Made by a program: the position numbers and the translations under genes
In this document: piece after piece, positions 904-25,659 of the stretch
How the letters are laid out: every line of letters begins with the position of its first letter
Numbering within the stretch: position 1 is the stretch's first letter
Source of the DNA: a virus
Length of the DNA stretch: 26,061 bases
IMG/VR virus record: IMGVR_UViG_3300031673_000422
Location: 1 to 26,061 of that record
Strand: one strand, 5' to 3'
Notes under the pieces: model-generated
Databases searched by the model: none
What the model was told of the DNA's origin: nothing
What the model saw: only the letters and a program-made list of their open reading frames with translations

Positions 904-2415
904 TCACCATGTCATTATTGTACCAACTCCTAATAAAGATACTCCAAGAATCCATACAGAATCGGCAGCAACCGCGAAACTAGGTTCAAACCCCAGTTGT
1001 GTGCTTACTAACTGCCCTGATTTGTTCAACCATTTGTGAGTTATTTTGCTTAATCGGAACACATCATTAATGCCCCATGTAGCAAGATCAAGGGTTACAT
1101 CATCAAATAATTCTAAGTCAAATTGGATAGTCGGCCTGTCCTCGATAAACCCCTGCGGAAATATAGGACTGGTAGATAAGAATCCGGCCAAAAAGTCTGT
1201 GAAGTCTCTAGCTGTATTGGTATCCTGTAACCAGGGCAGATTAAGATTGAATACTTTTGGATCTGTTAAATAACCCGAACCGGTTGCTCTCATGCCTGCC
1301 ACATCCGGCTTTTCTAGGGGTTTCCCTCTTACTTGTGCTAGTGTTAGATATCCACTTACTATATCGGTATTAAGAATAGTGAGCTTCCCTGTTTCTCCAA
1401 AATCATCATAGGTTCTCGTATTTGCTACCGCTGCACCGCCATCATCTTCCTGCGCATTAAATGTGTAATCAGTGCCTAGAAGAGGATCAACAACATCAAT
1501 GGCCGGTACAGAAATATCATTGTACGAATATTGCGGATAGACTGTGTAGCTTTCTCCTGGGCCAATAAGGGGTTTTTCCTCTTGCAGAGTCCATATTACT
1601 TGTAATGCCTGCTCTACGCGCGGATTTGCCTGTACATTAATAATGTTTCGTTGAAATTCCCATGGCTGAGGGATAGCGATGTCCTTTAATAATTCATCTT
1701 CTGTTAATGTCATTACCGGATCGGCAATTCTATGCCGACTGTAATATGTAAATGCCCCATTCCTAGCAGTAAATACGTATCCCATGCCTGAAGATGCGAG
1801 ATCCTCTATTGCTATCTTTGCGTTCTGTTTAGAAGCCCACCAGTATTTAATATTGTCCGGTCCAACATCTAGAGAACGCCCCCAAATAGCCGGCCAATTA
1901 ATATCATCCAGGATGGCGCCAATCCCATCATCTGCAGTAATGTTAGTTTGGATAGCAACATACGGGGAGGCATTATGCAAGAAATCCCAGCCATCGCTTA
2001 TGTCTAAATCAACTATCCCTCTGCGACCATAAGGAGTAATATCGGCTAGTCGTCCAGTGAAAACAGGATAGTTTTCCCCTGCAGTGCCATTTTTGACTTG
2101 TATTCTAACCTTTTTTCCGGGTGATAACATACCATATAAGGGACTAGCAGCATTAAAAGGATCATATCTGCCTGTGTCATTATAAAGTCTAATAACCGCC
2201 TCTCCTTTTGGCATTACTTCAAATCCGTCTGCGCTAGGTCTTATGTAAAATTCCCTGCCTCTCGTTGATTGAAAGTAAAACGCCCACATCGCTTCATTCT
2301 GACCATCAAATATACCGTCATCATCCCAATCAATCTCCATTGCCCAAAGCAGATTATCAGTAGCGGAGAGACCATACTTAAAATTAGAATATTTATCAGT
2401 ACCGTATTTCGTCAT
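904..2415 (-). CDS. Tail-tip / baseplate hub protein
   Basis: A 503-residue protein directly downstream of the tape measure gene, with an ATGA overlap (2412-2415). The segment RYDPFNAASPLYGMLSPGKK followed by VRIQVKNG, and then PVFTGRLADITPYG, is the pattern found in siphophage tail proteins of the hub/baseplate type, in which a beta-barrel domain sits at the base of the tube. Residues about 20-45 contain IDWDDDGIFDGQNE, an acidic loop that looks like a calcium-type site. The rest is strand-rich and ends in a hydrophobic stretch (WILGVSLLGVGTIMTW). It is the only large gene between the tape measure and the fibre-like gene, so it probably combines roles that other phages split over Dit-like and Tal-like proteins. 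Family-level assignment rests on pattern and order, not on a search. Confidence 0.72.
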   Translation of the reverse strand: MTKYGTDKYSNFKYGLSATDNLLWAMEIDWDDDGIFDGQNEAMWAFYFQSTRGREFYIRPSADGFEVMPKGEAVIRLYNDTGRYDPFNAASPLYGMLSPGKKVRIQVKNGTAGENYPVFTGRLADITPYGRRGIVDLDISDGWDFLHNASPYVAIQTNITADDGIGAILDDINWPAIWGRSLDVGPDNIKYWWASKQNAKIAIEDLASSGMGYVFTARNGAFTYYSRHRIADPVMTLTEDELLKDIAIPQPWEFQRNIINVQANPRVEQALQVIWTLQEEKPLIGPGESYTVYPQYSYNDISVPAIDVVDPLLGTDYTFNAQEDDGGAAVANTRTYDDFGETGKLTILNTDIVSGYLTLAQVRGKPLEKPDVAGMRATGSGYLTDPKVFNLNLPWLQDTNTARDFTDFLAGFLSTSPIFPQGFIEDRPTIQFDLELFDDVTLDLATWGINDVFRLSKITHKWLNKSGQLVSTQLGFEPSFAVAADSVWILGVSLLGVGTIMTW

Positions 2416-3674
2416 CTCGCCATCACTGTTCTAAGTCCTCTCTCAACAATGGGGAGTAGCACGCGTTCTGCGTTTGCCATGTCGGATAATGAAACTGCCG
2501 AATTTACATTTATAATTAGATTAATAGCTCCGCCGAGTTTGTTATTAGGCGTTATGTATCCTGAATCACGCCCCATGGTAAGCATTTCGGGGCCTTCTTC
2601 GCCAATAAGATAACTACCACCTGCAGATACTGGCCCGCCAGCCTGTCTAGGAATATAAAAAGAAGAAGCTGCAGAAGTAGCATAGGCTTTTGCTACTGCA
2701 AGTCCATATTGAGAAGTCTTAAGTCGATCTGTCGCTTCTCTGACTCTATCAATGGCTGAAGCTATACCCATTACAAGTCGATATACCCCTTCACCAAATG
2801 CCATCTTAAGTGCCCCGCCTATGTCGCCCTCGGCAAGCTTTGTTATTACTCCAATAATGCCTGAGGTTTCATTGCCTACTATTTTTTCAATCCATGCGAA
2901 AAGAGTTTCAATTCCTGCTTGTACCTCTGGATTATCCCATGCATCTAATAGCTTAGTGGTTATAGTTTCTAATATAGGGCGCAACCTATCACCAATCGCA
3001 ACCTTTAGATTGTCCACGTTGGCTTCTAATCTTGCCATGTTTGCGGCTGCGCCTTCCCCTTGCTCGCCGACTTTCTCCATAGTAAGCGCACCCTGTTCCA
3101 TGACAGCGTTCATAAAAGCAGTTTCGCGGGTCATGCCTACATTAGCTTCCATGAGTTCTTCTATACGATCACGTACCTTACCAGACGAAATACCAAAATT
3201 GTCTAATCGTGGGATTGACTGATTCGCTAACATAAGTGCAAATGCTTCTGCAGCATCCGTAGCAGTCATACCCATGGCAGAACCTAATTGCGTTGACATT
3301 TCTACCAATTTGGCCGATTCTTCGGATGTGCCGGCCAATCCCATGGCCACTAACTTATTTGATGCCTGCATAAGATCCGCATCATTTAACATTCCCCTGG
3401 ATGCAACCCGCAGGTCTTTTATCATTATGTCTGCGTTCTCGCCTATGCTTTCAGCTAGACTGTCAAATGTTCTAGAAAGTTTCTCTACCTGCGCGGATTC
3501 TTTCGCTAGATTAAAAATGGTTTTCCCGATGATAACGCCTGCGCCTACAACGGCAGCACCAGCAATACCGGCGGCCACCCCCAGCTTGCCCATAACGCTA
3601 TTCAAGCCACCAAGTTTTTTAGTGGCTTCGTCTTTTGCGGTAATAACAATTTCTAATACATTTTTAACTGCCAC
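2412..3674 (-). CDS. Tape measure protein (short)
   Basis: The protein of 420 residues starts with GTG. It shows the family layout: an N-terminal amphipathic region (TAKDEATKKLGGLNSVMG), a glycine/alanine-rich hydrophobic segment at about 31-50, long helical stretches with alternating hydrophobic residues, and a C-terminal signature with YLIGEEGPEML near residue 350, typical of tape measures. Tape measures line the tail tube, set its length, and are ejected before the DNA. At about 1.5 angstrom per residue (general knowledge of the family) the tail would be roughly 60 nm, short for a siphovirus. The start lies inside the frameshifted end of the tail chaperone gene (11-base overlap), the classic order chaperone, then tape measure. 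Confidence 0.9.
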   Translation of the reverse strand: MAVKNVLEIVITAKDEATKKLGGLNSVMGKLGVAAGIAGAAVVGAGVIIGKTIFNLAKESAQVEKLSRTFDSLAESIGENADIMIKDLRVASRGMLNDADLMQASNKLVAMGLAGTSEESAKLVEMSTQLGSAMGMTATDAAEAFALMLANQSIPRLDNFGISSGKVRDRIEELMEANVGMTRETAFMNAVMEQGALTMEKVGEQGEGAAANMARLEANVDNLKVAIGDRLRPILETITTKLLDAWDNPEVQAGIETLFAWIEKIVGNETSGIIGVITKLAEGDIGGALKMAFGEGVYRLVMGIASAIDRVREATDRLKTSQYGLAVAKAYATSAASSFYIPRQAGGPVSAGGSYLIGEEGPEMLTMGRDSGYITPNNKLGGAINLIINVNSAVSLSDMANAERVLLPIVERGLRTVMAR

Positions 3675-3852
3675 TTGCTTTTATCCAGCCTTTTAATCTG
3701 TAATACCACTCTTCGGTACACTCTTCCTCAAATTGCCAAGGAGGCATATGACATTCATCAGCCATTATTTTTATAATCACCCATAGAGGCACTACGGCTG
3801 TTGTTCCGTTTCTGAGGGCTCTGATTTCATTGATGATTTCCCATCCGCAGTA
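3664..3852 (-). CDS. Tail assembly chaperone, -1 frame extension (gpT-like)
   Basis: This frame has no independent upstream start: it opens just after a TGA and runs 62 codons to TAA at 3664-3666. It reads YCGWEIINEIRAL, then a hydrophobic stretch, then MPPWQFEEECTEEWYYRLKG near the end, the tryptophan- and acid-rich style of the second part of siphophage tail chaperones. Joined to the first 88 codons of the upstream gene by a -1 slip it gives a 150-residue fusion. An internal ATG at 3765 could make a 33-residue peptide, but it lacks a ribosome site. Position between the chaperone and tape measure genes is exactly where lambda-type G/T frameshifts occur. The reading frame is seen; translation by frameshifting is inferred. 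Confidence 0.72.
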   Translation of the reverse strand, partial: YCGWEIINEIRALRNGTTAVVPLWVIIKIMADECHMPPWQFEEECTEEWYYRLKGWIKASGS

Positions 3853-4115
3853 GGGTTTTCAGTTTGACCTTCTCCTGTTATAAGGTCGATCAGTTCTGTG
3901 AATTGTTCTTCTGAGGCATCAAACAATGCCTCGATTGCTTCGTCTCTGTTTTTTGGTTCAGTTACGAAATCTGCTAAGAAAGCAACCATATCATCAATAG
4001 TTGCTGGGCTTACCCCTTGTCTCATCTTTGCTTTGAACTCTAGTCCTATCTTTGCACGCCTTAAATAACCAGGCGTTTGCGCACTTGGTATTTCAAAAAC
4101 TAATTTACCGGCCAT
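3792..4115 (-). CDS. Tail assembly chaperone, unshifted product (gpG-like)
   Basis: A 107-residue acidic protein with an AAAGGAG ribosome site just before its ATG. The body (about 20-80) is helical, including ATIDDMVAFLADFVTE and EEQFTELIDLITGEG; the last 25 residues are a low-complexity tail (NPTADGKSSMKSEPSETEQQP), typical of the unshifted form, which is made in excess. It lies between tail tube and tape measure, the fixed place of the chaperone that coats the tape measure during tail assembly and is absent from the virion. Together with the -1 frame extension it gives the usual two-product system. Assignment rests on order, size and the overlapping open frame rather than on strong residue conservation. 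Confidence 0.8.
   Translation of the reverse strand: MAGKLVFEIPSAQTPGYLRRAKIGLEFKAKMRQGVSPATIDDMVAFLADFVTEPKNRDEAIEALFDASEEQFTELIDLITGEGQTENPTADGKSSMKSEPSETEQQP
3852..3858 (-). other. Putative -1 ribosomal slippery heptamer A AAC CCT
   Basis: In the register of the 107-codon gene the bases read GAA-AAC-CCT, which fits the X XXY YYZ pattern (AAA, CCC, T). After slipping back one base the codons AAA-CCC continue into an open frame of 62 codons. The site lies immediately after the last stop (TGA) in the -1 frame, which is where a slip must occur. CCC in the second half is less common than AAA or TTT, so efficiency may be modest. The only other phased candidate, T GGG AAA nearer the stop, breaks the rule. 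Confidence 0.6.
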
Positions 4116-4125
4116 TTTTACTCCT

Positions 4126-5376
4126 TTATGGTAATGTTGGTAGTGAGTCGGCTACGACTATAAACGTTGCATATTTCGCTTCGGTCGTATTGTATTGACC
4201 GCGCAATAAGCAATCTATAATATCATTGCCGTTATCCTCGCCTAACTTCTCGAATTTCTCCCATTGACCCGCAACATCCATTTGCAGTTCTTTGTAGGTA
4301 TATGCACCAGCGGTTTCTAATTCTGATCCTCTGGTTCGCATGCGTACTAACCTGCCAGCGTGACCCCCATCTTTCCACAACTGTTTCTCATCGCTTGAAT
4401 TGCCATCCCATTCGAGCGTCATTCTAAGTCGGATACTTGGGTTTACCAATGCCGCTCTCGGGAAATATAACTGACCACTTGCAGCAGGTCTTGCTTGAAT
4501 TCCAGTCTCAACCTCCATGTCAAACCCCATTAGGATGCTATTCATTGCGTTGCCACCAAAAGCACCAGTATCTGGGTCAATGAATAATTCGGTTTTTGAA
4601 AATAAAATATCTTCAACATTTGGAAGCGCGGCCGAATCGGTGAAATCCTGTTGAATTGTTACTGCTTCTGCGGCTTGGTCAGCTAATGTTTCGGTGACCG
4701 TTAGTACATCGTCTGTGCAGGAAACAACAGTCTTAAGCCCATTATTGGCGGCCAGTGTTGCGCCTTCTATCCTTATATTTGAACCATCAGGGAAGTTGTT
4801 TGCGCCTGCAAACTGTCCAGCCACTGTTGGTGTTATCGTTTCAGGCGGTCCGTGAGCAAATACCGCGTCTGCAATGGCGAGTTTCAATCGTTCTGCTTGC
4901 CGTCCTTCAATGGTAGCACTGATCATTAATGGCATTTTTGGTCTGCCTGAAATTTTGAAACTTCTCACAAATCCGTAAGGGATTATTTCCATTTCCTCAT
5001 TATCACCAGCCTCGATAGCAAACGTCTGAAAATCGTTTACTGGTTCTTGATATGAGAATGGATAAGTGTAAATATCCCCAGTTCCACCATCAGCAACAGC
5101 AGTATTATGAAGTAAAATACCACCTGAGAAATAATAAGGTAATTGTTCAAATGTAGCTGGATTCTCTTCAATCTCTAATACTGCGGATTTATAGGGGATA
5201 CTCACGCGCTCAACGTCCACCAGATAACCAATATCTTCGGGTGGGAAGTGCATTACGCGCTGATCCTCAACTGTTCCAGTTGCCCTTAAAACAGCGGTGG
5301 GCAAACCAATAGTGCCTTTAGTTGCAGTTGCCTCCTTATATAATTGAATGCGTCGTAGTCGTTTAATCCCGCTCAT
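4126..5376 (-). CDS. Major tail tube protein with inserted beta domain
   Basis: The 416-residue product resembles siphophage tail tube proteins: an N-terminal segment RRIQLYKEATATKGTIGLPT that starts the tube fold, the FEQLPYYFSGGI region, and a C-terminal part ending in YATFIVVADSLPTLP. Tube proteins stack as hexamer rings around the tape measure. About residues 180-250 look like an insertion: GQFAGANNFPDGSNIRIEG followed by NNGLKTVVSC and LTVTETL, a pattern of small beta domains added to phage structural proteins and likely displayed on the outside of the tube. It has a GAGGTGATGA ribosome site, and its start overlaps the upstream 65-codon gene by 14 bases. The tube call rests on size, fold style and position just before the chaperone. 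Confidence 0.8.
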   Translation of the reverse strand: MSGIKRLRRIQLYKEATATKGTIGLPTAVLRATGTVEDQRVMHFPPEDIGYLVDVERVSIPYKSAVLEIEENPATFEQLPYYFSGGILLHNTAVADGGTGDIYTYPFSYQEPVNDFQTFAIEAGDNEEMEIIPYGFVRSFKISGRPKMPLMISATIEGRQAERLKLAIADAVFAHGPPETITPTVAGQFAGANNFPDGSNIRIEGATLAANNGLKTVVSCTDDVLTVTETLADQAAEAVTIQQDFTDSAALPNVEDILFSKTELFIDPDTGAFGGNAMNSILMGFDMEVETGIQARPAASGQLYFPRAALVNPSIRLRMTLEWDGNSSDEKQLWKDGGHAGRLVRMRTRGSELETAGAYTYKELQMDVAGQWEKFEKLGEDNGNDIIDCLLRGQYNTTEAKYATFIVVADSLPTLP

Positions 5377-6857: not shown

Positions 6858-7823
6858 TTAGGTTATCAATTCCTTCGCCACACCACTTAAATCTGCTCCT
6901 GTGACAGCGTTCATATTTCCATACAAGAAGCCTCTATCACTTGCATCAAGCGTTGTCACGCCGTGAAGCATGCAATCTTTGAGCAAGATAGTGCAGTTCC
7001 TATTTCCTGCAATTGCTGGTAGGAGAAAAGCAGAAGCCATCACAAAGTTTTTAAAGTTAGTATTAATGAAATTGCATTTATCGAATATGGTATAGCGGTC
7101 AATTCCAGTACCGTCAACAACTTCCACAAAACCAGCATCTATATGACCAGCACTCATTGTGAAGTTGCAGTGTTTGAATACATTCCTTCTTGCCTCAGTA
7201 TCAAGCAGTAATCCCATCATGCCGGTGGCTGCGGCAATAGTATCTACCCCAATAGTACAATCAACAAAAGTATTTTCTTCAGCCCCGTCTAATTTTAATG
7301 AAGCACCACCGTTAATCGCTTGGCTCGCATGACCGCCACCCGCAAAGTGAACATTCTCAAAATAGTTGCGTCCGCCCGTTACTTGAACATTGATATTCGC
7401 AACTGCTTCATCTACGCCCTGGAAGATGTAGATATTCTTAAAGATACACCCACTCCCAGTAATATTAATCAGCGGGGTCAGGGCAAGCACAGTTTCATTG
7501 TGAATCCTTGCTCTTTGAGCAACCATAGTCGGCGCACATGCACCAATCAAATGTGTATAGCTCTTTGCCCAAGTAAGTGTAGCGGCCAAAGTATCTCCTG
7601 TCGCTCCCCCAAGATAAATTACTTTATCATTTGCTCCATCTGTACATAAAAGATAAGCGGCTGCAACAGATGCTAACGCACTATCCCATGATAGACCAGT
7701 ATTTGTGTCCAAACCGTTTACTGGGTCAACAAAGAATTCCTTACCCTTTCCACCCACCATTGAATCTCCACCATAGATGACCAAATTACCAGCCAACCAT
7801 TTGGAGTATAGTCTCATATCCAT
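6858..7823 (-). CDS. Right-handed beta-helix protein, probable capsid-associated fibre
   Basis: I place the start at the ATG preceded by AAGGAG six bases upstream, giving 321 residues starting MDMRLYSKWLAGN; a longer frame starting five codons earlier has the ribosome site inside it. After about 30 residues comes FFVDPVNGLDTNTGLSWDSA, the opening seen in pectate-lyase-like beta-helix proteins, then repeated short coils such as NITGSGCIFKNIYIFQG, RNYFENVHFAG, NTFVDCTIG, RNVFKHCNFTMSAG, TIFDKCNFINTNF and CTILLKDCMLHG. Each coil ends with an aromatic or Cys/Asn ladder residue. In tail fibres this fold binds or cuts polysaccharide; here the gene stands between capsid and connector genes, so a head-attached fibre or decoration is more likely. 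No catalytic acid cluster can be assigned by eye. Confidence 0.75.
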   Translation of the reverse strand: MDMRLYSKWLAGNLVIYGGDSMVGGKGKEFFVDPVNGLDTNTGLSWDSALASVAAAYLLCTDGANDKVIYLGGATGDTLAATLTWAKSYTHLIGACAPTMVAQRARIHNETVLALTPLINITGSGCIFKNIYIFQGVDEAVANINVQVTGGRNYFENVHFAGGGHASQAINGGASLKLDGAEENTFVDCTIGVDTIAAATGMMGLLLDTEARRNVFKHCNFTMSAGHIDAGFVEVVDGTGIDRYTIFDKCNFINTNFKNFVMASAFLLPAIAGNRNCTILLKDCMLHGVTTLDASDRGFLYGNMNAVTGADLSGVAKELIT

Positions 7824-11268: not shown

Positions 11269-11375
11269 TCTCTTAAATTATATCTCTTTTCTATAAATCT
11301 CACAATCATTAAAATTGCCTGACGCATTACCATTAATAGCGGTTTTATGTGTTTCCAAAATTCAATTTCACTCAT
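11265..11375 (-). CDS. 36-residue amphipathic or membrane peptide
   Basis: Hand translation gives MSEIEFWKHIKPLLMVMRQA continuing ILMIVRFIEKRYNLRE. The centre (13-26) is hydrophobic and both ends are charged, so it could be a short membrane or amphipathic helix. It starts inside the last codons of the upstream gene (8-base overlap) and its TGA overlaps the ATG of the metallopeptidase gene, so the open frame exactly fills the gap between the two. There is no clear ribosome site; translation would rely on coupling. The perfect nesting of both ends is the main support. Confidence 0.6.
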   Translation of the reverse strand: MSEIEFWKHIKPLLMVMRQAILMIVRFIEKRYNLRE

Positions 11376-12003
11376 GTAAGAAATACCTAAAATGAACATT
11401 CAATGTTTTCGCAGCAGCGGTAGCACACATCGCCCTATAATAGACTGTCTCTCCTGCCGGTATCAATGCGCCACGCACTCGTGGAGATTGTGCAGTAGGA
11501 AGTTTGTTCGTTTCAGTCAGAACCCTATGTCGACTAATTATTGTTTTGGATGCGCCATAACTAATTTCTATCATAAATCGAGTTGCGTCTTGATTCGTCT
11601 CCTCAACCAGCATAGCTGTAATGTGCCCAGGATAAGTAGCAAACTTAGAAGATAGCAATACGGGCACTCCTTGATCGTCTGCAATTTCAGTCCAGCCTGT
11701 CCATGTATTAGCATCTGCATGTGCAGTTAAAATACATAGATTCGCTGTGCTTTCAGGAAAAATAACCGTAGCGTGATTTTCGTGCTCTACTAAAAGTTCC
11801 GAATCAACTACTATCTGCTTTACATAAGCCATTACCAAATCAGTATCAGTAACACCTCCAGCGGCCTCCGCCGTATTCAAAGCACCTAAAACAGAAGCTA
11901 ACGCGGCATTATTCGTACCGCGCATAGCTTCCCCATTAAGACCCGCAACCTCGGCGAGAATTGTTGCTATATCAGGACTTGTCCCAGGATTATGTACTGT
12001 CAT
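11368..12003 (-). CDS. MTVHxPG-tagged virion-type protein 3
   Basis: A 211-residue protein starting MTVHNPGTSPDIATILAEVA. Only the first residues match the two upstream paralogues; the body differs. Residues about 8-55 are helical; about 70-211 are strand-rich and end with VRGALIPAGETVYYRAMCAT and LNVHFRYFLHE, the look of phage structural beta domains that carry an assembly surface. No catalytic motif. It starts in an ATGA overlap with GAGGCGGT upstream. The shared tag on an unrelated body suggests that MTVHxPG is a targeting or docking sequence. Virion location is inferred from context. Confidence 0.7.
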   Translation of the reverse strand: MTVHNPGTSPDIATILAEVAGLNGEAMRGTNNAALASVLGALNTAEAAGGVTDTDLVMAYVKQIVVDSELLVEHENHATVIFPESTANLCILTAHADANTWTGWTEIADDQGVPVLLSSKFATYPGHITAMLVEETNQDATRFMIEISYGASKTIISRHRVLTETNKLPTAQSPRVRGALIPAGETVYYRAMCATAAAKTLNVHFRYFLHE

Positions 12004-12578
12004 ACCGCCTCTACTAAACCATATTCTCTAATCAATGGTCGCCATATTAATTCAAAGTCAATCTTAAAGATTGCCCCTCCACCATCACTTGTGTAATTGA
12101 ATCTAATATAGTTGGTTTCTCCGTACATTGCATTTGCCACAAGTGGGGCAAACAGATCTAAGCCTACTGCCCCATCAATAATTCTTACTTGATCAGCGTT
12201 CAGATAATCTACTTTTACTCCCGCCTGGTCATTTCTTCCAATAAATGAGCCATTGCTACATCCTGATAAGTCCTCTCCTGCGGCTGAGGTAATCGGTACG
12301 GCTGGATTCGTTCCATCGATTAAATCAAATGAGGCAGCCGTAACTGCTGAAACATCTGTAACCAGACTAAATACTCCATAAAGTCTAAGTATTTCAACGC
12401 CACCGACCAAAGTGAATAGGTTTACATTCTGCGCCCCAGTTGGCGTTCCTGTTACTGAAATCGATTTACTTGCCAACGTTCCTAATTGCGAAATATAGCA
12501 ATAAGCTGAGTTAACAACCATGTCGGCTATTGCCGGTGCTGCTAATCCTAACAAACTTCCTGGTTTATGTACTGTCAT
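12000..12578 (-). CDS. MTVHxPG-tagged virion-type protein 2
   Basis: A 192-residue protein with AGGAG before the ATG and the N-terminus MTVHKPGSLLGLAAPAIADM. The C-terminal half is clearly homologous to the neighbouring upstream protein: ADQVRIIDGAVGLDLFAPLV here against SDQARIVDGAVGLELSAPFI there, and both finish with a strand plus IWRPL (FELIWRPL and HEIVWRPL). The two genes are therefore a tandem duplication that has diverged. The composition is strand-rich, without a signal peptide. The likely place is the capsid or neck surface, by context between gp10-like and protease genes; function unproven. Confidence 0.72.
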   Translation of the reverse strand: MTVHKPGSLLGLAAPAIADMVVNSAYCYISQLGTLASKSISVTGTPTGAQNVNLFTLVGGVEILRLYGVFSLVTDVSAVTAASFDLIDGTNPAVPITSAAGEDLSGCSNGSFIGRNDQAGVKVDYLNADQVRIIDGAVGLDLFAPLVANAMYGETNYIRFNYTSDGGGAIFKIDFELIWRPLIREYGLVEAV

Positions 12579-12592
12579 TTAATTCTCCTAAT

Positions 12593-13183
12593 TTAAGTGG
12601 GCGGATAATAACGGTATAAGTATCCGCTGCTGTTCAACGGCCGCCAAACAATTTCGTGGCATACCGTAAAATCAACGGGGCCGCCAGTGGAAGTAAAGTG
12701 AAGCCTCATCCTTGTGGCTGCTCCATTCTTAGCATTCACAATAAATGGGGCAGAAAGTTCCAATCCCACCGCACCATCTACAATCCGCGCTTGGTCTGAA
12801 TCCATTAAATTAACCGCCGCCAAGCTAGTATCAATCCTTCCCAATAAGGAAGCAACCTCAACATTAGTGCAATCCGTTCCATCTAATGTTATATCCACAG
12901 CATTGGTTCTGTCGTAAAGGTCATAATATAATTTTGTTGGTGCTGCTGCCGTATTATCTGCATTCCAGAAATATGACCAAAACCGTAAAACTTCTATTGT
13001 TCCCCATACTGTTGCAAACTCAAAGGAGTAGGCGGCTGCTTGCGTGTCTCCGATAACCTCTACACATTGCCCCATCACTGTTCCGGCTCTGGTGTAATAA
13101 TCATAGAAGCTATTCCAAGCAACCTCCATGCCGAACTTCCAGCTAAGAGTTACAAACGGATCTCCTGGCTCGTGTACGGTCAT
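12593..13183 (-). CDS. MTVHxPG-tagged virion-type protein 1
   Basis: A 196-residue protein beginning MTVHEPGDPFVTLSWKFGME. It is a paralogue of the next downstream gene (same SDQARIVDGAVGLELSAPF block and IVWRPL end) with an extended C-terminus SSGYLYRYYPPT. The middle is aromatic and strand-rich (IEVLRFWSYFWNADN). It starts in an ATGA overlap with the 99-codon gene, so the four small genes form one translational chain. Structural role, perhaps head decoration or receptor-contact protein, is inferred from fold style and location. Confidence 0.72.
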   Translation of the reverse strand: MTVHEPGDPFVTLSWKFGMEVAWNSFYDYYTRAGTVMGQCVEVIGDTQAAAYSFEFATVWGTIEVLRFWSYFWNADNTAAAPTKLYYDLYDRTNAVDITLDGTDCTNVEVASLLGRIDTSLAAVNLMDSDQARIVDGAVGLELSAPFIVNAKNGAATRMRLHFTSTGGPVDFTVCHEIVWRPLNSSGYLYRYYPPT

Positions 13184-14658: not shown

Positions 14659-16047
14659 CTATCCTTTCAACGTTTCCGCTTCTGCTTCATCCAATACCCT
14701 ATTCTTTTGTTTCCGTAGGTAAGTTGTCATCTGTTTGGTTATTTCATTCTCGTCCTTCACTCGACCTCCTGCATCCAAAAGTTTAGATTCTAACATATCG
14801 ATTACTTGTTTTGTCGCTCCTTCCTCCATCACAGGTACGTCAAATTGATTCAAGGTTCTAATCAATACATCGCCACCGCGCAATCGTGATAGGTTAATCC
14901 CTTCTCTGAATTCATTCACCGTAATGCCCCCTGCGGTCAATGCGGCCAAGTATCTTTCCCATAATTTCTGTGCTTCCTCTTGGTATGCCGCTACTTGTGA
15001 AAAGTCCCACTTAACCATAATATTATCGCCGAATTCAGGCACCAGTCGCGCATTAATAATATCATCGTAGTGTTGGTACATCGGAGAGATAGTATCCTGC
15101 CACCAGGCTTTCCTCGCCTCACCGTAATTAGCATAAGTAGCCCGCTTCAATCCAACTGCAGCACCCACCAAGATGGGCGGTACGTCTAGTACCATGCAAA
15201 TACGGGCTTCATTGCGTTCATCTAGTGTCTCGAATCCCATTTCGCTAAATGATAACCCCGTCTTTTGATATTCAGCATCGGCGTCTAGCACTGCAGGAGA
15301 TAGCCATTTCATATAACCACCATAGCGTTGCTCCCACCTGCGCCTAATCGCTTTTACTTGAGCATCCTGTAAATGCTGTGTAGTTTTTAGTATTCCAGGT
15401 GGTATCCCTCCTCTTTCCCAAAACAACTTAATAAAATCAGTAGAACTATTGTCCACATCCCCTATTCTCGCGGCTACCGCCACAGGCGGCCAACCTCGAT
15501 ACATATTCAGCGGGTCAAAGTTCTTAAACACCAGTATATCTTCTTTAGGCACAATAATTTCACCAGTTAAGCCTGGGACTTTATATAAATAATGAGAAAT
15601 AAACTCAGTAGATGATTTAACCGGATTAAGCCAATCTGGTCTCAACGGCCATAATCCTACCGTCCGCCCCGCTGCGGATCGCTCTTTTTCCCAGTATGAT
15701 ACTCCGGCTAAATCTCCATAGATAGCATTTGCCGACCAGAAATCAAATTCCGCCATTTCGCTGTTAGGCGATTGTATTAATTTCCTCAATGGATGATCGG
15801 GGAGTTCCTCTTGTGATTTTTTATCATATACCCTTAAAGCCACCTGACTTGCCGAATTAGCGGTTTTGGCAATGCAAGCGAATATTAATTCATTCTTACG
15901 ATAACCTAATGTGGCCATCGTCTTGAAATCAACTTCTGAATATGATGGTTTGCCCTCCTCCCAGCTACTTACTCTAGTAGCCTGTAGTGCTTTCTCTCCG
16001 CCCATAATAACTCTGAATCCGAATAATAGTCTATCAAATATGTTCAT
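14659..16047 (-). CDS. Portal protein, HK97 type
   Basis: I start it at the ATG at 16047 (MNIFDRLLFGFRVIMGG) preceded by AAGGAG; an N-terminal extension of 28 codons in the same frame lies over the radical SAM gene and is rejected. The 462-residue product shows family segments: RKNELIFACIAKTANSASQV, ELPDHPLRKLIQSPN, the wing region with GLWPLRPDWLNPVKSS, DILVFKNFDPLNMYRGWPPV, LFWERGGIPPGILKTTQHL, and VLDVPPILVGAAVGLKRATY ANY-type clip/stem sequence. Twelve copies form the DNA gate at one capsid vertex and dock the terminase. It overlaps the radical SAM gene by 14 bases and is followed by the small AGGAGG gene. Confidence 0.95.
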   Translation of the reverse strand: MNIFDRLLFGFRVIMGGEKALQATRVSSWEEGKPSYSEVDFKTMATLGYRKNELIFACIAKTANSASQVALRVYDKKSQEELPDHPLRKLIQSPNSEMAEFDFWSANAIYGDLAGVSYWEKERSAAGRTVGLWPLRPDWLNPVKSSTEFISHYLYKVPGLTGEIIVPKEDILVFKNFDPLNMYRGWPPVAVAARIGDVDNSSTDFIKLFWERGGIPPGILKTTQHLQDAQVKAIRRRWEQRYGGYMKWLSPAVLDADAEYQKTGLSFSEMGFETLDERNEARICMVLDVPPILVGAAVGLKRATYANYGEARKAWWQDTISPMYQHYDDIINARLVPEFGDNIMVKWDFSQVAAYQEEAQKLWERYLAALTAGGITVNEFREGINLSRLRGGDVLIRTLNQFDVPVMEEGATKQVIDMLESKLLDAGGRVKDENEITKQMTTYLRKQKNRVLDEAEAETLKG

Positions 16048-16852
16048 AATTGCTCCTTGCATAAATAATTTCTGGTCGTGTCCATAATCGCTGAAACTTT
16101 TTCCACTCTTGATTTGTTTTTCCTTCATCATCTCGCCACAACATAGCGAATGGCATAAAACCCAAATTTAGCGTATCAGTTAATCTTTTCTCCGCTTTGC
16201 TTATTGTATCACCAGGAAAACCAATCAGATTATAACAACAAACATTGTGAGATGGCAATAAGTGTACTTCTATAAGTAGTTTTGATACATGCGCTAATGA
16301 TTCATAATCATCTGGAGTGTCGTATGCAAAATAAATTCTTTGCGGTTTTAGATCAACTAATAATTCAACATGCCAATCTTCCAGCAGGTATGCTTGTAAT
16401 CCGCCACTGAATATTGCCTTCTTCGGTTGTCTTTTCAACATTTGAAATACAGCCCTAATATGCTTTTCAGAACAAGCAAGTAAGTTATCGTCTTGTACAT
16501 TCCAGCCATCTTTTATTTCTAGTTCTTCAAACTTACCTTTGCATCGTTTCCAAACATAGCAAAACCAACATTTATTAGGACATCCTCTGCTGGTTATCGT
16601 GTTCCCCTTGCGTAAAAATCTCCCTGGTATAAATTCCCCCATTACATTCCCATAAGCTGGACCACCCAATTCAACAGGCGCGATCCATTTCCATGCCTTT
16701 GCTAATCGTTCAGCTTCTGGCTTATCCCATGTGAAAGTACAAGACACTAATATTTTGTCGGCTTTTACAAATAGTGTAGGATCTCCAACATAAGCATCTC
16801 GATCATCTGGTGTTTGGTTTGTTTTTCTAGGAAATACCCTGATCGCTTTCAT
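16034..16852 (-). CDS. Radical SAM enzyme, phage-encoded, substrate unknown
   Basis: A 272-residue protein with the canonical CxxxCxxC iron-sulphur motif, CPNKCWFC at 91-98. FSGGL (148-152) probably matches the SAM-contacting GG motif. YFAYDTPDD and NLIGFPGDT are strand and loop elements typical of the partial TIM barrel. Residues 1-75 resemble a Rossmann-like, B12-binding-type domain (DPTLFVKADKILVSCTFTWD and WIAPVELGGPAYG), though no cobalamin DxHxxG motif is present. Further cysteines at 104 and 127 could hold another ligand. AAGGAGG lies 9 bases before the ATG. The gene is lodged between terminase and portal genes and overlaps both neighbours, so it is a settled part of the late transcript. 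Substrate (DNA, RNA, protein or metabolite) cannot be told. Confidence 0.88.
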   Translation of the reverse strand: MKAIRVFPRKTNQTPDDRDAYVGDPTLFVKADKILVSCTFTWDKPEAERLAKAWKWIAPVELGGPAYGNVMGEFIPGRFLRKGNTITSRGCPNKCWFCYVWKRCKGKFEELEIKDGWNVQDDNLLACSEKHIRAVFQMLKRQPKKAIFSGGLQAYLLEDWHVELLVDLKPQRIYFAYDTPDDYESLAHVSKLLIEVHLLPSHNVCCYNLIGFPGDTISKAEKRLTDTLNLGFMPFAMLWRDDEGKTNQEWKKFQRLWTRPEIIYARSNYEHI

Positions 16853-17197: not shown

Positions 17198-17302
17198 ACG
17201 TGTATGCCTCCAAATTCTGAAAATCCTAATCCACTTACATTATATCTTAAGGCGTCAAACATGTATGCCCCCAAACTTTGAACCACCGAATAATACATTA
17301 TA
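17194..17302 (-). repeat. Tandem duplication of the 3' end of the large terminase gene
   Basis: Copy 1 (17255-17302) encodes the terL end, YNVLFGGSKFGGIHV plus TGA. Copy 2 (17194-17244), in the space after the stop, would encode YNVSGLGFSEFGGIHV plus TGA. Both begin TATAATGTA and share TTTGGxGGCATACAxGTxTGA. The second copy has no open frame upstream joined to it, so it looks like a decayed duplication left by recombination or an insertion event between terL and the following gene. Confidence 0.75.
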
Positions 17303-18613
17303 TGCACCGCTTGAAGCGTCTACCTGATCATCATGTGAACCATCAGGGAAATTATGCGACTCGTCTATATAATCTTTATTCCAGTCTCCTTCAATAAGAA
17401 AGACATTGCCAGATTCAACCATTGATGATAAGGGCTTCGCTCTTTCAATCTTATTCTTTGTGACCGTGTGAGTATAAACCGCATAACCCCCTAAAACATC
17501 TAGCCGGATATGTTCTAAATATAACTTGCTTCCTGCTCCTCCTTCCTGCTCAATATGGATCTCTGTGTTTATCCCATCCATAATAGCAGTGGTTTTCATT
17601 AGATTTTCTAATCGTTTGGCAGTATCACGCACTCGAATCGCATCTACAACCCAACCCTGTCCTTCCGATTCGGCCATTAATATCCCTGCGGTCCAATCGG
17701 GATCAACATTCTTTACAGAAGGTTCGGTAGCTGCCAAATCCCAATATCTGACTTTCCGACTATTTCTCGGATATGTGTTTTTCATGCGCCACCAAGATCG
17801 ACTGAATACCTTTCCGGCAGCCGGTTTTATAAACCAATTTCCCCCCTTGGTCGGATCCTCCCCTAATAAACGAATTCGATCAATATATGGCAAGGACATT
17901 AATCTGCCGAGATATTCAGGATCTCTCTCCATTAATATTTTATTGTCAAATATTGTAGATAAGAAAAATGCCACTGACATTGGAATTGCGCCTCGATGAT
18001 CTGCAAGCAGCTCTTCTCGTGAATCTGCCCAAACAATCTTGTCTCCTGATCTGGCCATCCAGCGAATCTTGCCGTCTTTAGCAGTATCAGCATAACCATC
18101 TTGATCTAACCACCATATTAAGAATTGACAAAGCCAGTTCGGTTCAGGATTAGCTCCTGCTCGGCAATAAGCCCGCATTTTATACATTGCCCTATTTCGA
18201 GAGAGCATATAAAAAAATTGTGTTTCCGTAAATGATTCTAATTGATCAAACTGCAATAATGCAAGTTGCGCACTATTGTAATTGTATTTTGTTTTTTCAT
18301 GCTGTAAGTGTGAGAATGAAATTTCAGCACCAGAAGGAAAACGAGCCCGATGAAACATTTCATTGAGACGCCCTCCAAGAAGAGGGTATAAAGCAGTAGC
18401 CTCGTCCCAAATGCCCCCTGCTTGTGTTACTTCTGGCATAGTTCGCCGAAGAGTTACGCAGGTAAACTTCTCACTCTTAATATGCCTTAATGGTTCTGTT
18501 GTCAAATAGAAGGTTTTTCCACCACCAGGAGCACCCCCAATAATAGCTATATCAGCAGGCGAAGAAGCAATAGCCTCTTGTCTAGGTTGTAGCCGGATCT
18601 CGGTCATTACCAT
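17255..18613 (-). CDS. terL: Terminase large subunit
   Basis: A 452-residue packaging motor. The ATPase part has Walker A GGAPGGGKT (26-34) and Walker B-like LALLQFDQLES near 117-127. The nuclease part has RYWDLAATE (acidic residue Asp292), IHIEQEGGAG (Glu355) and SHDDQVDASSG (Asp428/429/432), the three acidic positions of the RNase-H-like nuclease. It cuts concatemeric DNA and pumps it through the portal. It starts within the TerS gene (32-base overlap), with a second ATG two codons later. Length matches shorter terminases. The last 15 codons are duplicated after the stop. Confidence 0.96.
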   Translation of the reverse strand: MVMTEIRLQPRQEAIASSPADIAIIGGAPGGGKTFYLTTEPLRHIKSEKFTCVTLRRTMPEVTQAGGIWDEATALYPLLGGRLNEMFHRARFPSGAEISFSHLQHEKTKYNYNSAQLALLQFDQLESFTETQFFYMLSRNRAMYKMRAYCRAGANPEPNWLCQFLIWWLDQDGYADTAKDGKIRWMARSGDKIVWADSREELLADHRGAIPMSVAFFLSTIFDNKILMERDPEYLGRLMSLPYIDRIRLLGEDPTKGGNWFIKPAAGKVFSRSWWRMKNTYPRNSRKVRYWDLAATEPSVKNVDPDWTAGILMAESEGQGWVVDAIRVRDTAKRLENLMKTTAIMDGINTEIHIEQEGGAGSKLYLEHIRLDVLGGYAVYTHTVTKNKIERAKPLSSMVESGNVFLIEGDWNKDYIDESHNFPDGSHDDQVDASSGAYNVLFGGSKFGGIHV

Positions 18614-21448: not shown

Positions 21449-22843
21449 TTATTCATGAATGAATACATGCGTGCCGTTCTGCACTAAATCAAAAACTATT
21501 TTCGCTTCATTAATCGCCATATTGACACATCCCCTACTCATAGGAGTTCCGAAATTGTCGTGCCAATACGTCCCGTGAATGGCATATTCTCCATGAAAGA
21601 ATATTACCCAGGGCGTATTCGGAAAAGCTCTTGTTTCACCCTGCATCGTATAATTTTCATACATCGCATAAATCTTATAGCTACCTCCCAAAGGTGTTGG
21701 CGTTCTAGGCAATCCTGTAGACACAGAAAAAGTATTTAATTTATCTTTACCTCGATTAACCGTAAGTGTTTGGTCGCTTAAATCAACCTCCAACCATATC
21801 TCATCCAATCCAACTACAAAACCCTTATTCACCGATGTGGGCGTTTGGATAGTAATTGTGCCAGGGAATTCAATATTAGTCGCGTCCTCGGATGGTTCTC
21901 CGTCTATTCTAGTAGTATTTATATCAAACTGGACAAACTCTGGATTAGGCGGAATTCGCCATGACGGCTTCCCATTCTCCTCTGTCGGCGGTCGGTAGAG
22001 CATTCTCGGAACATTGACATAATATTCTGTAGCTTCCTCGTTTGTCTCAAATGGGTCAAATTCTATACGATCTAAAAACCATTCTCTCAAATCTACAACC
22101 GGAACATCTTTAATAATCTCACTGGGCGGTATCTTAGATACCATTACATTATCAATTCGTGTAACGTTCCAATGCCGATCCCATTTATTATTCTCATCGA
22201 GATTCGCCATACCCCAACGGCGCGCGGTTTCAAATCCTATTTCCACAGATTCGCCATTATGCACCACTACATTGTAAAGGTCTTTCCGTGCAGCACAATC
22301 CACTACTCTGAATGGCCCCTCCCACTCATTGCCCGGTCTTTTCAACCAAACTAGCGCGCCATGGTCAGCACAAGTCATCAGCGCAACTCCGTCCATCATT
22401 CCTTCTAATGAAAGTTCATTGTATTCTGCGGTAGCCTCCATCACGCCCGGACCGTAGGGCACAGCAGAACCAGTAAATAGATCTGGCATTAAGAGATACT
22501 GAACATCAAAAGTCAACATGCCCGGGATCCATTTGTTATTCGATTCATAGTACCAACCGTTGTACAGACTCGCATCCTCGTATGGTTCGGGCTCTGGATG
22601 CCCTAAATACCGTTCTGGATCCGGCACAAACTTTGCCACAGGCTTGATTTCCTTTGATAGTGCCTCAAACTGTGTGATTTCTGGTAGCGCCACAGATTCA
22701 ATTTCCTCAATAGGATCTATCTGCTCATTCTCTCTTGTGGATATCTCAAACGACATACTTTCTGTGTCCACCGCTATACTGATATCCACTCTCTGCCCAA
22801 GCAGTAAAGTTATCAACAAAATTATTAACTGATGAAATAACAT
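21449..22843 (-). CDS. Secreted L,D-transpeptidase (YkuD) with double-psi-barrel-like region
   Basis: A 464-residue exported protein. Residues 1-16 (MLFHQLIILLITLLLG) look like a signal peptide. About 100-215 include GVALMTCADHGALVWLKR, GPFRVVDCAARKDLYNVVV and VEIGFETARRWGM, a pattern that recalls RlpA/EG45-type double-psi barrels. The C-terminus (about 345-464) is a YkuD domain: IWLEVDLSDQTLTVNRG, TPTPLGGSYKIYAM, HGTYWHDNFG with catalytic His423, and SRGCVNM with nucleophile Cys439. YkuD enzymes make 3-3 or lipoprotein crosslinks in peptidoglycan. In a phage this could alter the wall during infection, help lysis timing, or block rivals; it is not a usual lysin. AAAGGA precedes the ATG. Confidence 0.88.
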   Translation of the reverse strand: MLFHQLIILLITLLLGQRVDISIAVDTESMSFEISTRENEQIDPIEEIESVALPEITQFEALSKEIKPVAKFVPDPERYLGHPEPEPYEDASLYNGWYYESNNKWIPGMLTFDVQYLLMPDLFTGSAVPYGPGVMEATAEYNELSLEGMMDGVALMTCADHGALVWLKRPGNEWEGPFRVVDCAARKDLYNVVVHNGESVEIGFETARRWGMANLDENNKWDRHWNVTRIDNVMVSKIPPSEIIKDVPVVDLREWFLDRIEFDPFETNEEATEYYVNVPRMLYRPPTEENGKPSWRIPPNPEFVQFDINTTRIDGEPSEDATNIEFPGTITIQTPTSVNKGFVVGLDEIWLEVDLSDQTLTVNRGKDKLNTFSVSTGLPRTPTPLGGSYKIYAMYENYTMQGETRAFPNTPWVIFFHGEYAIHGTYWHDNFGTPMSRGCVNMAINEAKIVFDLVQNGTHVFIHE

Positions 22844-24476: not shown

Positions 24477-25154
24477 CTATGTCCATTCTTGAACATCTGC
24501 CTCTTTTATCTCCTCTATCCGTTTCTGGATATCCTCTGCTTTTATTCTAGGATCAACCTGCGATATAAATACACTTGGATTTGCTTCAACGCCAGCTTCC
24601 TTCATCCGGTTAAGAAAACTTTCGGTTTTTTCATCTGGTGCCGGCGATATATTAGATGTTCCACCAGGAAACACCCTTGCCGGTTCTGCCGATAATATAT
24701 CTGCTATTTCATTAACCAATTCTAATATTCTGTTTTTCTGTTGCGCGGGTATTTCATCCGGCAGTTTCTTATAGAAACTGTTCAATGATTTGATTGTCTT
24801 GCCAATGCGCTTTTCATAGGATAAAAATTCGCCTTGTTTTTCAGGTAGATATTTTGTAACTATTTTATTCCATGAGATATTTTTTCCTTCGGGGACTTCG
24901 TCTAGTAATGGGAATTTATCAAAGAATTGGAGAGCATACCAAAGCGTTCTCTCAGATATTCCAACATCTACTGCAAGGGTTTGCAGTTGATTAGTTAAAT
25001 TGCCAGTAAAATTTTCCCGGATAAGTTTCCCAACATTCCAATATCCTTCCACCAAAAACCACCTGCTATTATGCACCGCCTCTGTTATTGTTGCTTTTAT
25101 TTGCTCCACTAAAAGCATATAATGATCATTTTTGACTATTAAATCTCGTTCCAT
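24477..25154 (-). CDS. DUF1016-N-like helical protein, nuclease part absent
   Basis: A 225-residue protein with GAAGAGGAAAT before the ATG. Residues about 10-85 (VEQIKATITEAVHNSRWFLV, EGYWNVGKLIRENF, GISERTLWYALQFFDKFP) resemble the helical N-terminal domain of DUF1016/YhcG proteins, which normally precedes a PDDEXK nuclease. Here the rest is a helical, charged region (EKRIGKTIKSLNSFYKKLPD, KAEDIQKRIEEIKEAD) without the PDDEXK residues. The N-terminal domain probably binds DNA or a partner. It lies between nuclease and membrane genes. Family likeness is judged by eye. Confidence 0.68.
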   Translation of the reverse strand: MERDLIVKNDHYMLLVEQIKATITEAVHNSRWFLVEGYWNVGKLIRENFTGNLTNQLQTLAVDVGISERTLWYALQFFDKFPLLDEVPEGKNISWNKIVTKYLPEKQGEFLSYEKRIGKTIKSLNSFYKKLPDEIPAQQKNRILELVNEIADILSAEPARVFPGGTSNISPAPDEKTESFLNRMKEAGVEANPSVFISQVDPRIKAEDIQKRIEEIKEADVQEWT

Positions 25155-25163
25155 ATTTCCTCT

Positions 25164-25595
25164 TCATCCTTCCAATAGCCTTAGTTGAATTAATTTTTCT
25201 TCATATTTTAATAAATATTCCATTATCCTACCCCTGGAAAAGCCCCCTCCCCTTTCAAGATATCCTAACCCTATATTGCAATTATTACACAATATGCCCC
25301 TTATTCTTCCTGTTTCATGATCGTGATCAATATTAGTCTCTCTTCCACTGTCTAATTCTTTTTTGCAAATAGCACATTTTCCGTTTTGCTTTTCTATCAT
25401 CTGCTGTTTCTGCTTCGGTAAAATCCCATATCTCCTCTCCAAATCGTATTTTTCTCTTTTCCTTTTGGCTTTGGGGAGTAGATTTTGTTCAGATTTGCAC
25501 ATTCTGCACCAATAACTCAAGCCATCATCGCTTTTCTTGTTTTTGTGAAACTCATTCAATGGTTTTTCTATTCCACATTTAGTGCATAATTTCAT
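25164..25595 (-). CDS. Endonuclease VII / HNH-like nuclease
   Basis: I start it at ATG 25595 (MKLCTKCGIEKPLNEFHKNK), which lies one base after the stop of the 20-codon frame; a start six codons earlier lacks a ribosome site. The 143-residue protein has an N-terminal zinc unit (Cys4, 7, 30, 33) and a C-terminal recombination-endonuclease-VII-like His-Me finger: CAIC (74-77), IDHDHETGRIRGILCNNCN (89-107). In T4, this fold resolves branched DNA; related stand-alone enzymes are often homing or packaging nucleases. Role in this phage not determined. Confidence 0.88.
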   Translation of the reverse strand: MKLCTKCGIEKPLNEFHKNKKSDDGLSYWCRMCKSEQNLLPKAKRKREKYDLERRYGILPKQKQQMIEKQNGKCAICKKELDSGRETNIDHDHETGRIRGILCNNCNIGLGYLERGGGFSRGRIMEYLLKYEEKLIQLRLLEG

Positions 25596-25596
25596 A

Positions 25597-25659
25597 TTAT
25601 CTCTTGCAGTCATCCAATAATAATTTGTACCATTCTTCGGTTCCTGTTAATTCATTCAT
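25597..25659 (-). CDS. 20-codon leader-like mini-ORF upstream of the nuclease gene
   Basis: The frame MNELTGTEEWYKLLLDDCKR starts right after GGAGGAGCG, one of the strongest ribosome sites here, and ends TAA, one base before the nuclease ATG. It is too short to call a protein with certainty but seems built to couple translation into the nuclease gene. A leader peptide is another reading. Confidence 0.45.
   Translation of the reverse strand: MNELTGTEEWYKLLLDDCKR

Follow-up and report, generated by a model that had tools for sequence, protein, structure and literature searches.

The window analyzed here is the whole stretch of 26,061 nt at positions 1 to 26,061 of the IMG/VR virus record IMGVR_UViG_3300031673_000422, and ORF analysis in window coordinates placed the feature under study on the minus strand, which the original prediction had left unstated. 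The feature comprises two overlapping reading frames. The first one, at 3792..4115, is a 107 aa ORF (0 frame) annotated as a putative G-like tail assembly chaperone, which starts with the ATG at 4115, ends with the TAG at 3794-3792 and is preceded by the Shine-Dalgarno sequence AAAGGAGT. Its codons 87 and 88 are AAC and CCT, and the base A preceding them completes the heptamer A_AAC_CCT at 3852..3858 (minus strand), which is phased as X_XXY_YYZ (GA[A AAC CCT]) and was characterized as a slippery site from sequence and conservation. A count over 15 ORFs of the window gave AAC as 55 of 215 Asn codons. The second frame is a T-like extension of 62 codons in the -1 frame (3664..3852, minus strand), which runs from the TAC at 3852 to 3667, is followed by the TAA at 3666-3664 and was delineated by sequence, relatives and dN/dS. 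The predicted slip product is a fusion of 88+62 = 150 aa with WQFEEECTEEWYYRLKGWIKASGS at its C-terminal end. In the window, the -1 codon immediately 5' of the heptamer (3861) is TGA, so that the opening of the -1 frame right at the heptamer had been correctly described in the original prediction, as had the coordinates, the 107 codons, the phase of A AAC CCT and the 88 + 62 = 150 residues of the fusion.

Directly upstream of the chaperone in transcription order is a 416 aa ORF (4126..5376, minus strand), which is a probable major tail tube protein judging from its position, its relatives (76-85% identity) and a match with PF18906 (Phage_tube_2) below the cut-off (E = 0.01). Its one match among phage records is a short stretch of a single Klebsiella phage, in a gene that lies between a tail terminator and a tail assembly chaperone. 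A structure model of the tube candidate was too poor (pLDDT 32) and was discarded. On the other side, a 420 aa tape measure protein with a GTG start is located at 2412..3674 (minus strand) and was recognized by phrog_1538 (E = 2.2e-6); tape-measure profiles of PHROG were also matched in five of the five distinct relatives described below. The start of the tape measure overlaps the stop of the -1 ORF by 11 nt, with the same overlap in all seven records, and in the window the -1 extension and the tape measure occupy different frames. The small ORF therefore sits between the tube-candidate and tape-measure genes, as in the lambda-type G/GT arrangement, and the previously proposed order of tube, chaperone and tape measure is upheld by profiles for the tape measure, and by a weak Pfam match together with synteny for the tube. 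Apart from the tail module, the minus strand of the window bears a radical SAM-like protein (16034-16852; PF04055 at E = 1.3e-5, short of the curated cut-off), whose gene immediately precedes and overlaps that of the portal, as well as a 464 aa protein (21449-22843) whose C-terminal domain is a YkuD L,D-transpeptidase (PF03734 at E = 1.7e-18), possibly with a lysis or cell-wall role. Additionally, three consecutive ORFs at 11368-13183 (minus strand) start with MTVH.PG and look by eye like diverged repeats, without any Pfam match, and a DUF1016_N-like ORF (E = 8.9e-5, below the curated cut-off) adjoins a recombination endonuclease VII family protein (E = 1e-20) at 24477-25613 (minus strand).

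A search with the 416 aa protein led to six IMG/VR records that share the tail module, which together with the window make seven records and six distinct sequences; L005 repeats the sequence of L004 in this region, and the alignments and the dN/dS count were made without it. Wider alignment-based and pattern searches of the IMG/VR viral contigs returned only the same six records, the G protein alone as a query had zero close relatives in viral contigs, and a DNA similarity search of phage records gave no match. Prokaryote genomes searched by tube and by terminase yielded zero relatives and no host link. The terminase of the window (17255-18613, minus strand) had no match in the six tail-module records (L002-L007), three of which are fragments under 15 kb and two of which are near 40 kb; its absence from relatives that include two of such length hints at modular mosaicism.

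All seven records have the same gene order of tube, chaperone and tape measure, with a chaperone ORF of 103-116 aa. In each of them, A_AAC_CCT is invariant and in phase (six distinct sequences), and the -1 ORF that begins at the heptamer has 62-64 codons. Identity to the relatives is 51-76% over the part of the chaperone before the slip and 72-75% for the -1 frame extension. The tail of G just 5' of the heptamer varies in both length and sequence, yet the 11 bases AAACCCTACTG are invariant. Both AAC and the codon preceding it (GAA or GGA) also have a fixed third base, where the 0 frame would leave the choice open. Only the window has a TGA immediately 5' of the heptamer; in the relatives, the -1 frame is open for 1 to 12 codons before it, and it is from the heptamer onward that the -1 peptide is conserved (KPYC.WE..NEIRA). 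Relatives without an open -1 frame or a slippery site at this position had been named beforehand as the observation that would count against a frameshift; the opposite was found, with both being kept in seven of seven records. In L004 and L005 only, a second phased heptamer, A_AAA_AAG, which belongs to a strong class in E. coli, is located later in the overlap (in L004 before the 0-frame stop at 7589).

Concerning selection, pairwise counts over the six distinct sequences (15 pairs) in the stretch covered by the -1 frame alone, beyond the last 0-frame stop, gave a dN/dS of 0.05 for the -1 frame, against 0.78 for the 0 frame and 2.49 for the +1 frame. Changes in this region fall at the first, second and third positions of the -1 codons 74, 33 and 191 times, respectively, and stops occur only in the 0 and +1 frames, with none in the -1 frame. 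In the short double-coded overlap the counts were 0.66, 0.90 and 0.42 and the frames were not separated, as expected under overlapping constraint. The -1 frame evolves as a protein under strong purifying selection.

Neither part of the fusion showed a significant family, sequence or fold match to known chaperones. PF23857 (Phage_TAC_19) appeared with E = 0.12 in two of the six sequences, and the family is unmatched in the seven records searched. The model of G has four helices and a mean pLDDT of 69, with residues 84-107 below pLDDT 50; no significant match was found for it in PDB, VIA-align or viral predictions, and the top viral row of Foldseek with this model was a tail assembly chaperone at E = 0.68. 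A sequence search of solved structures gave nothing relevant, and neither lambda G nor lambda T matched the parts encoded in the window. The T domain matches only T4-like Aeromonas proteins (E 3-5), which in the one record examined lie outside a tail context. PHROG_25512 matches three of the six T domains (best E = 0.0027), and the agreement between this 77-position profile and the 77 aa Aeromonas protein suggests that they are the same family.

Two candidate stimulators were detected around the heptamer, and both are considered unproven. The first one is a hairpin, GAUGG-GAAA-UCAUC, located 6 nt past the heptamer at 3832..3845 (minus strand), which is a possible but weak stimulator. For the 30 nt that follow the heptamer, this GAAA-loop hairpin is the MFE fold in each of the six distinct sequences, with energies of -3.9 to -8.7 kcal/mol; the window has the weakest one (-3.9 kcal/mol), and there the hairpin is not the MFE fold of the 51 nt. 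Folds of 51 nt presented z-scores from -2.65 to +0.89, with the window and L007 no better than shuffles, the covariation in the hairpin was not above that of shuffles (62 to 167 of 500 reached the observed value), and a consensus fold of the whole 263-column region contained no convincing larger structure. The second one is a Shine-Dalgarno-like sequence, CAGGAGAA, at 3870..3877 (minus strand), 11 nt upstream of the heptamer, with a pairing energy of -7.4 kcal/mol to the anti-SD. It was rejected as evidence for a stimulator, as the observed energy is reached by 23% of the synonymous recodings of the window (23-91% across the sequences).

The production of two versions of the tail assembly chaperone through a one-letter slip of the ribosome is well known in tailed phages. 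The conservation of the site in seven of seven records and the purifying selection in the -1 frame support the original reading of the locus, and with a probability of roughly 0.92 we consider, from the six distinct, related sequences compared, that it bears a -1 programmed ribosomal frameshift of the lambda G/GT type in the tail assembly chaperone gene. Among the other explanations, the one that survives best accepts a slip but locates it elsewhere or describes it otherwise, i.e., as a P-site-only event, as slippage on the C_CCU tetramer alone, or as slippage on the A_AAA_AAG of L004 and L005. The tetramer C_CC.U is measurably shifty with a pseudoknot in E. coli (PMC4066793) and the A_AAA_AAG heptamers of these two records are themselves phased. 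However, from the -1 stop at 3861 to the 0-frame stop, the overlap of the window contains A_AAC_CCT as its sole phased heptamer or Z_ZZN tetramer, this is the only such site common to the seven records, and its three A bases are all kept though needless for a C_CCU tetramer. We consider such a slip unlikely.

An even less likely explanation is that no fusion is made and the -1 ORF works as a small gene of its own, translated through internal initiation or through reinitiation once the 0-frame stop has been reached. Reinitiation at overlapping genes is frequent in phages, and each record has in-frame ATGs in its -1 ORF, one of them, at codon index 31, being found in all seven. These ATGs, however, lie approximately 31 codons into the -1 ORF and their pairing with the anti-SD is weak (-3.1 to -3.7 kcal/mol at index 30/31, where random positions have a mean of -2.1 and a 5th percentile of -6.6 kcal/mol), while the conservation of the -1 peptide starts upstream of them, at the heptamer. 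Moreover, a separate gene would leave the slippery heptamer without a role. We therefore regard this explanation as very improbable. Finally, that heptamer and open frame are both incidental is next to impossible: among 38 minus-strand ORFs examined in the window, 14 have a -1 frame that continues without a stop for 15 codons or more beyond their end, mostly because the next gene occupies that frame. In the case of the chaperone ORF, however, the next gene is the tape measure, whose frame is not that of the -1 extension, and a phased X_XXY_YYZ within such an overlap was found in the chaperone ORF alone (1 of 38). The seven-record conservation also speaks against chance, which is taken as refuted by the selection on the -1 frame.

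Under a programmed -1 frameshift, most ribosomes would reach the TAG at 3794 and release the 107 aa G-like chaperone with its disordered tail. A minority would slip at the heptamer, where the P-site Asn-tRNA (on AAC) and the A-site Pro-tRNA (on CCT) would move back by one base and re-pair with AAA and CCC; these ribosomes would then continue in the -1 frame to give the GT-like fusion. The G part would coat the tape measure, while the T part would recruit tube subunits, by analogy with lambda. What the sequences show is the phased site with its conservation, the conserved -1 protein under selection and the order of the genes, whereas we infer that ribosomes slip here, how often they do so, that two tRNAs move in tandem and what the two products do. 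A low slip level would suit a chaperone that is needed at a low GT ratio.

The heptamer had also been described as rare because of its CCC half. In E. coli, CCN and GGN are poorer A-site codons for shifting than UUN and AAN (Sharma et al., 2014; PMC4066793), and motifs in which X and Z are both purine or both pyrimidine shift better (PMC4066793). In that study, A_AA.C_CC.U lies outside the 21 motifs picked for gene searches, and only A_AA.C_CC.A, G_GG.C_CC.A and C_CC.G_GG.C are named as staying below twice the background despite a strong pseudoknot (PMC4066793). Its absence from these three failures is the sole ground for placing A_AA.C_CC.U above twice the background with the IS3 pseudoknot, and therefore the motif should be active in E. 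coli but of a weak class, with a purine X, a pyrimidine Z and a CCN A site. Tail-chaperone sites named in the papers covered are GGGAAAG for TP901-1 (PMC4493119), AAAAAAG/AAAAAAC for Paenibacillus phages (PMC6003738), T6G/T7G for P2-like phages (PMC3931495) and GTTTTT for Vandenendeviridae (PMC12846349); all of them have A or T in the A-site half, whereas the window has CCT. Full-text searches, with the 2004 heptamer table of Xu, Hendrix and Duda outside their coverage, gave no printed A_AAC_CCT at a phage tail site. On the other hand, PRFect reports all four bases at each of the X, Y and Z positions in annotated actinophage tail chaperones (PMC10885494). The claim of rarity can thus be kept as far as the poorer shifting of CCN in E. 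coli and (PMC4066793) the lack of a printed tail-site example in the texts covered are concerned, and has to be softened in view of the actinophage bases reported by PRFect (PMC10885494). We consider the heptamer an uncommon, mildly unusual slip site for a tail chaperone. It is rather doubtful that A_AAC_CCT is a genuinely efficient slip site in its host, through properties of the Asn- and Pro-tRNAs or an unrecognised stimulator; if it were, CCN would be a good A-site slip codon outside E. coli. The locus extends the tail-chaperone frameshifts by a case that has evolutionary support and carries C in the A-site half of its heptamer. Predictors demanding A or U in that half would miss it, and the conserved domain encoded in the -1 frame would be lost altogether in a standard annotation.

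Comparison with phage lambda reveals a common layout between the two systems. The order of tail terminator, tube, G, T and tape measure (U-V-G-T-H in lambda) is shared, and so is a -1 overlap at the 3' end of G with a phased X_XXY_YYZ; the same test, run on lambda as a control, recovered GGGAAAG and the T frame. The stop of T overlaps the start of the tape measure in both, by 8 nt in lambda and by 11 nt in the window. They differ in the heptamer itself (G_GGA_AAG in lambda and A_AAC_CCT in the window), in the length of the T extension (about 144 and 62 residues, respectively) and in the tape measure, which at 420 aa is short in the window, unlike that of lambda, and no sequence similarity is detectable between them. 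In lambda, gpG and gpGT are made at a ratio of about 30:1, the short product binds the tape measure and the long one recruits tube subunits (PMC5009743). A further comparison is with L008 (IMGVR_UViG_3300043331_000614), a distant tape-measure relative that was not included in the alignments and in which the same test found the same layout. Like the window, it has a tube-like ORF, then a small ORF in the chaperone position (101 aa, 3166-3471) with a -1 extension of 76 codons, and then an 860 aa tape-measure-like ORF. Unlike the window, it bears conventional heptamers in tandem (C_CCA_AAA / A_AAA_AAA) and a different T sequence. The small tail module of uncultured phages described here (seven records) could allow motif strength and the required chaperone ratio to be compared directly with the L008 layout and its conventional heptamer.
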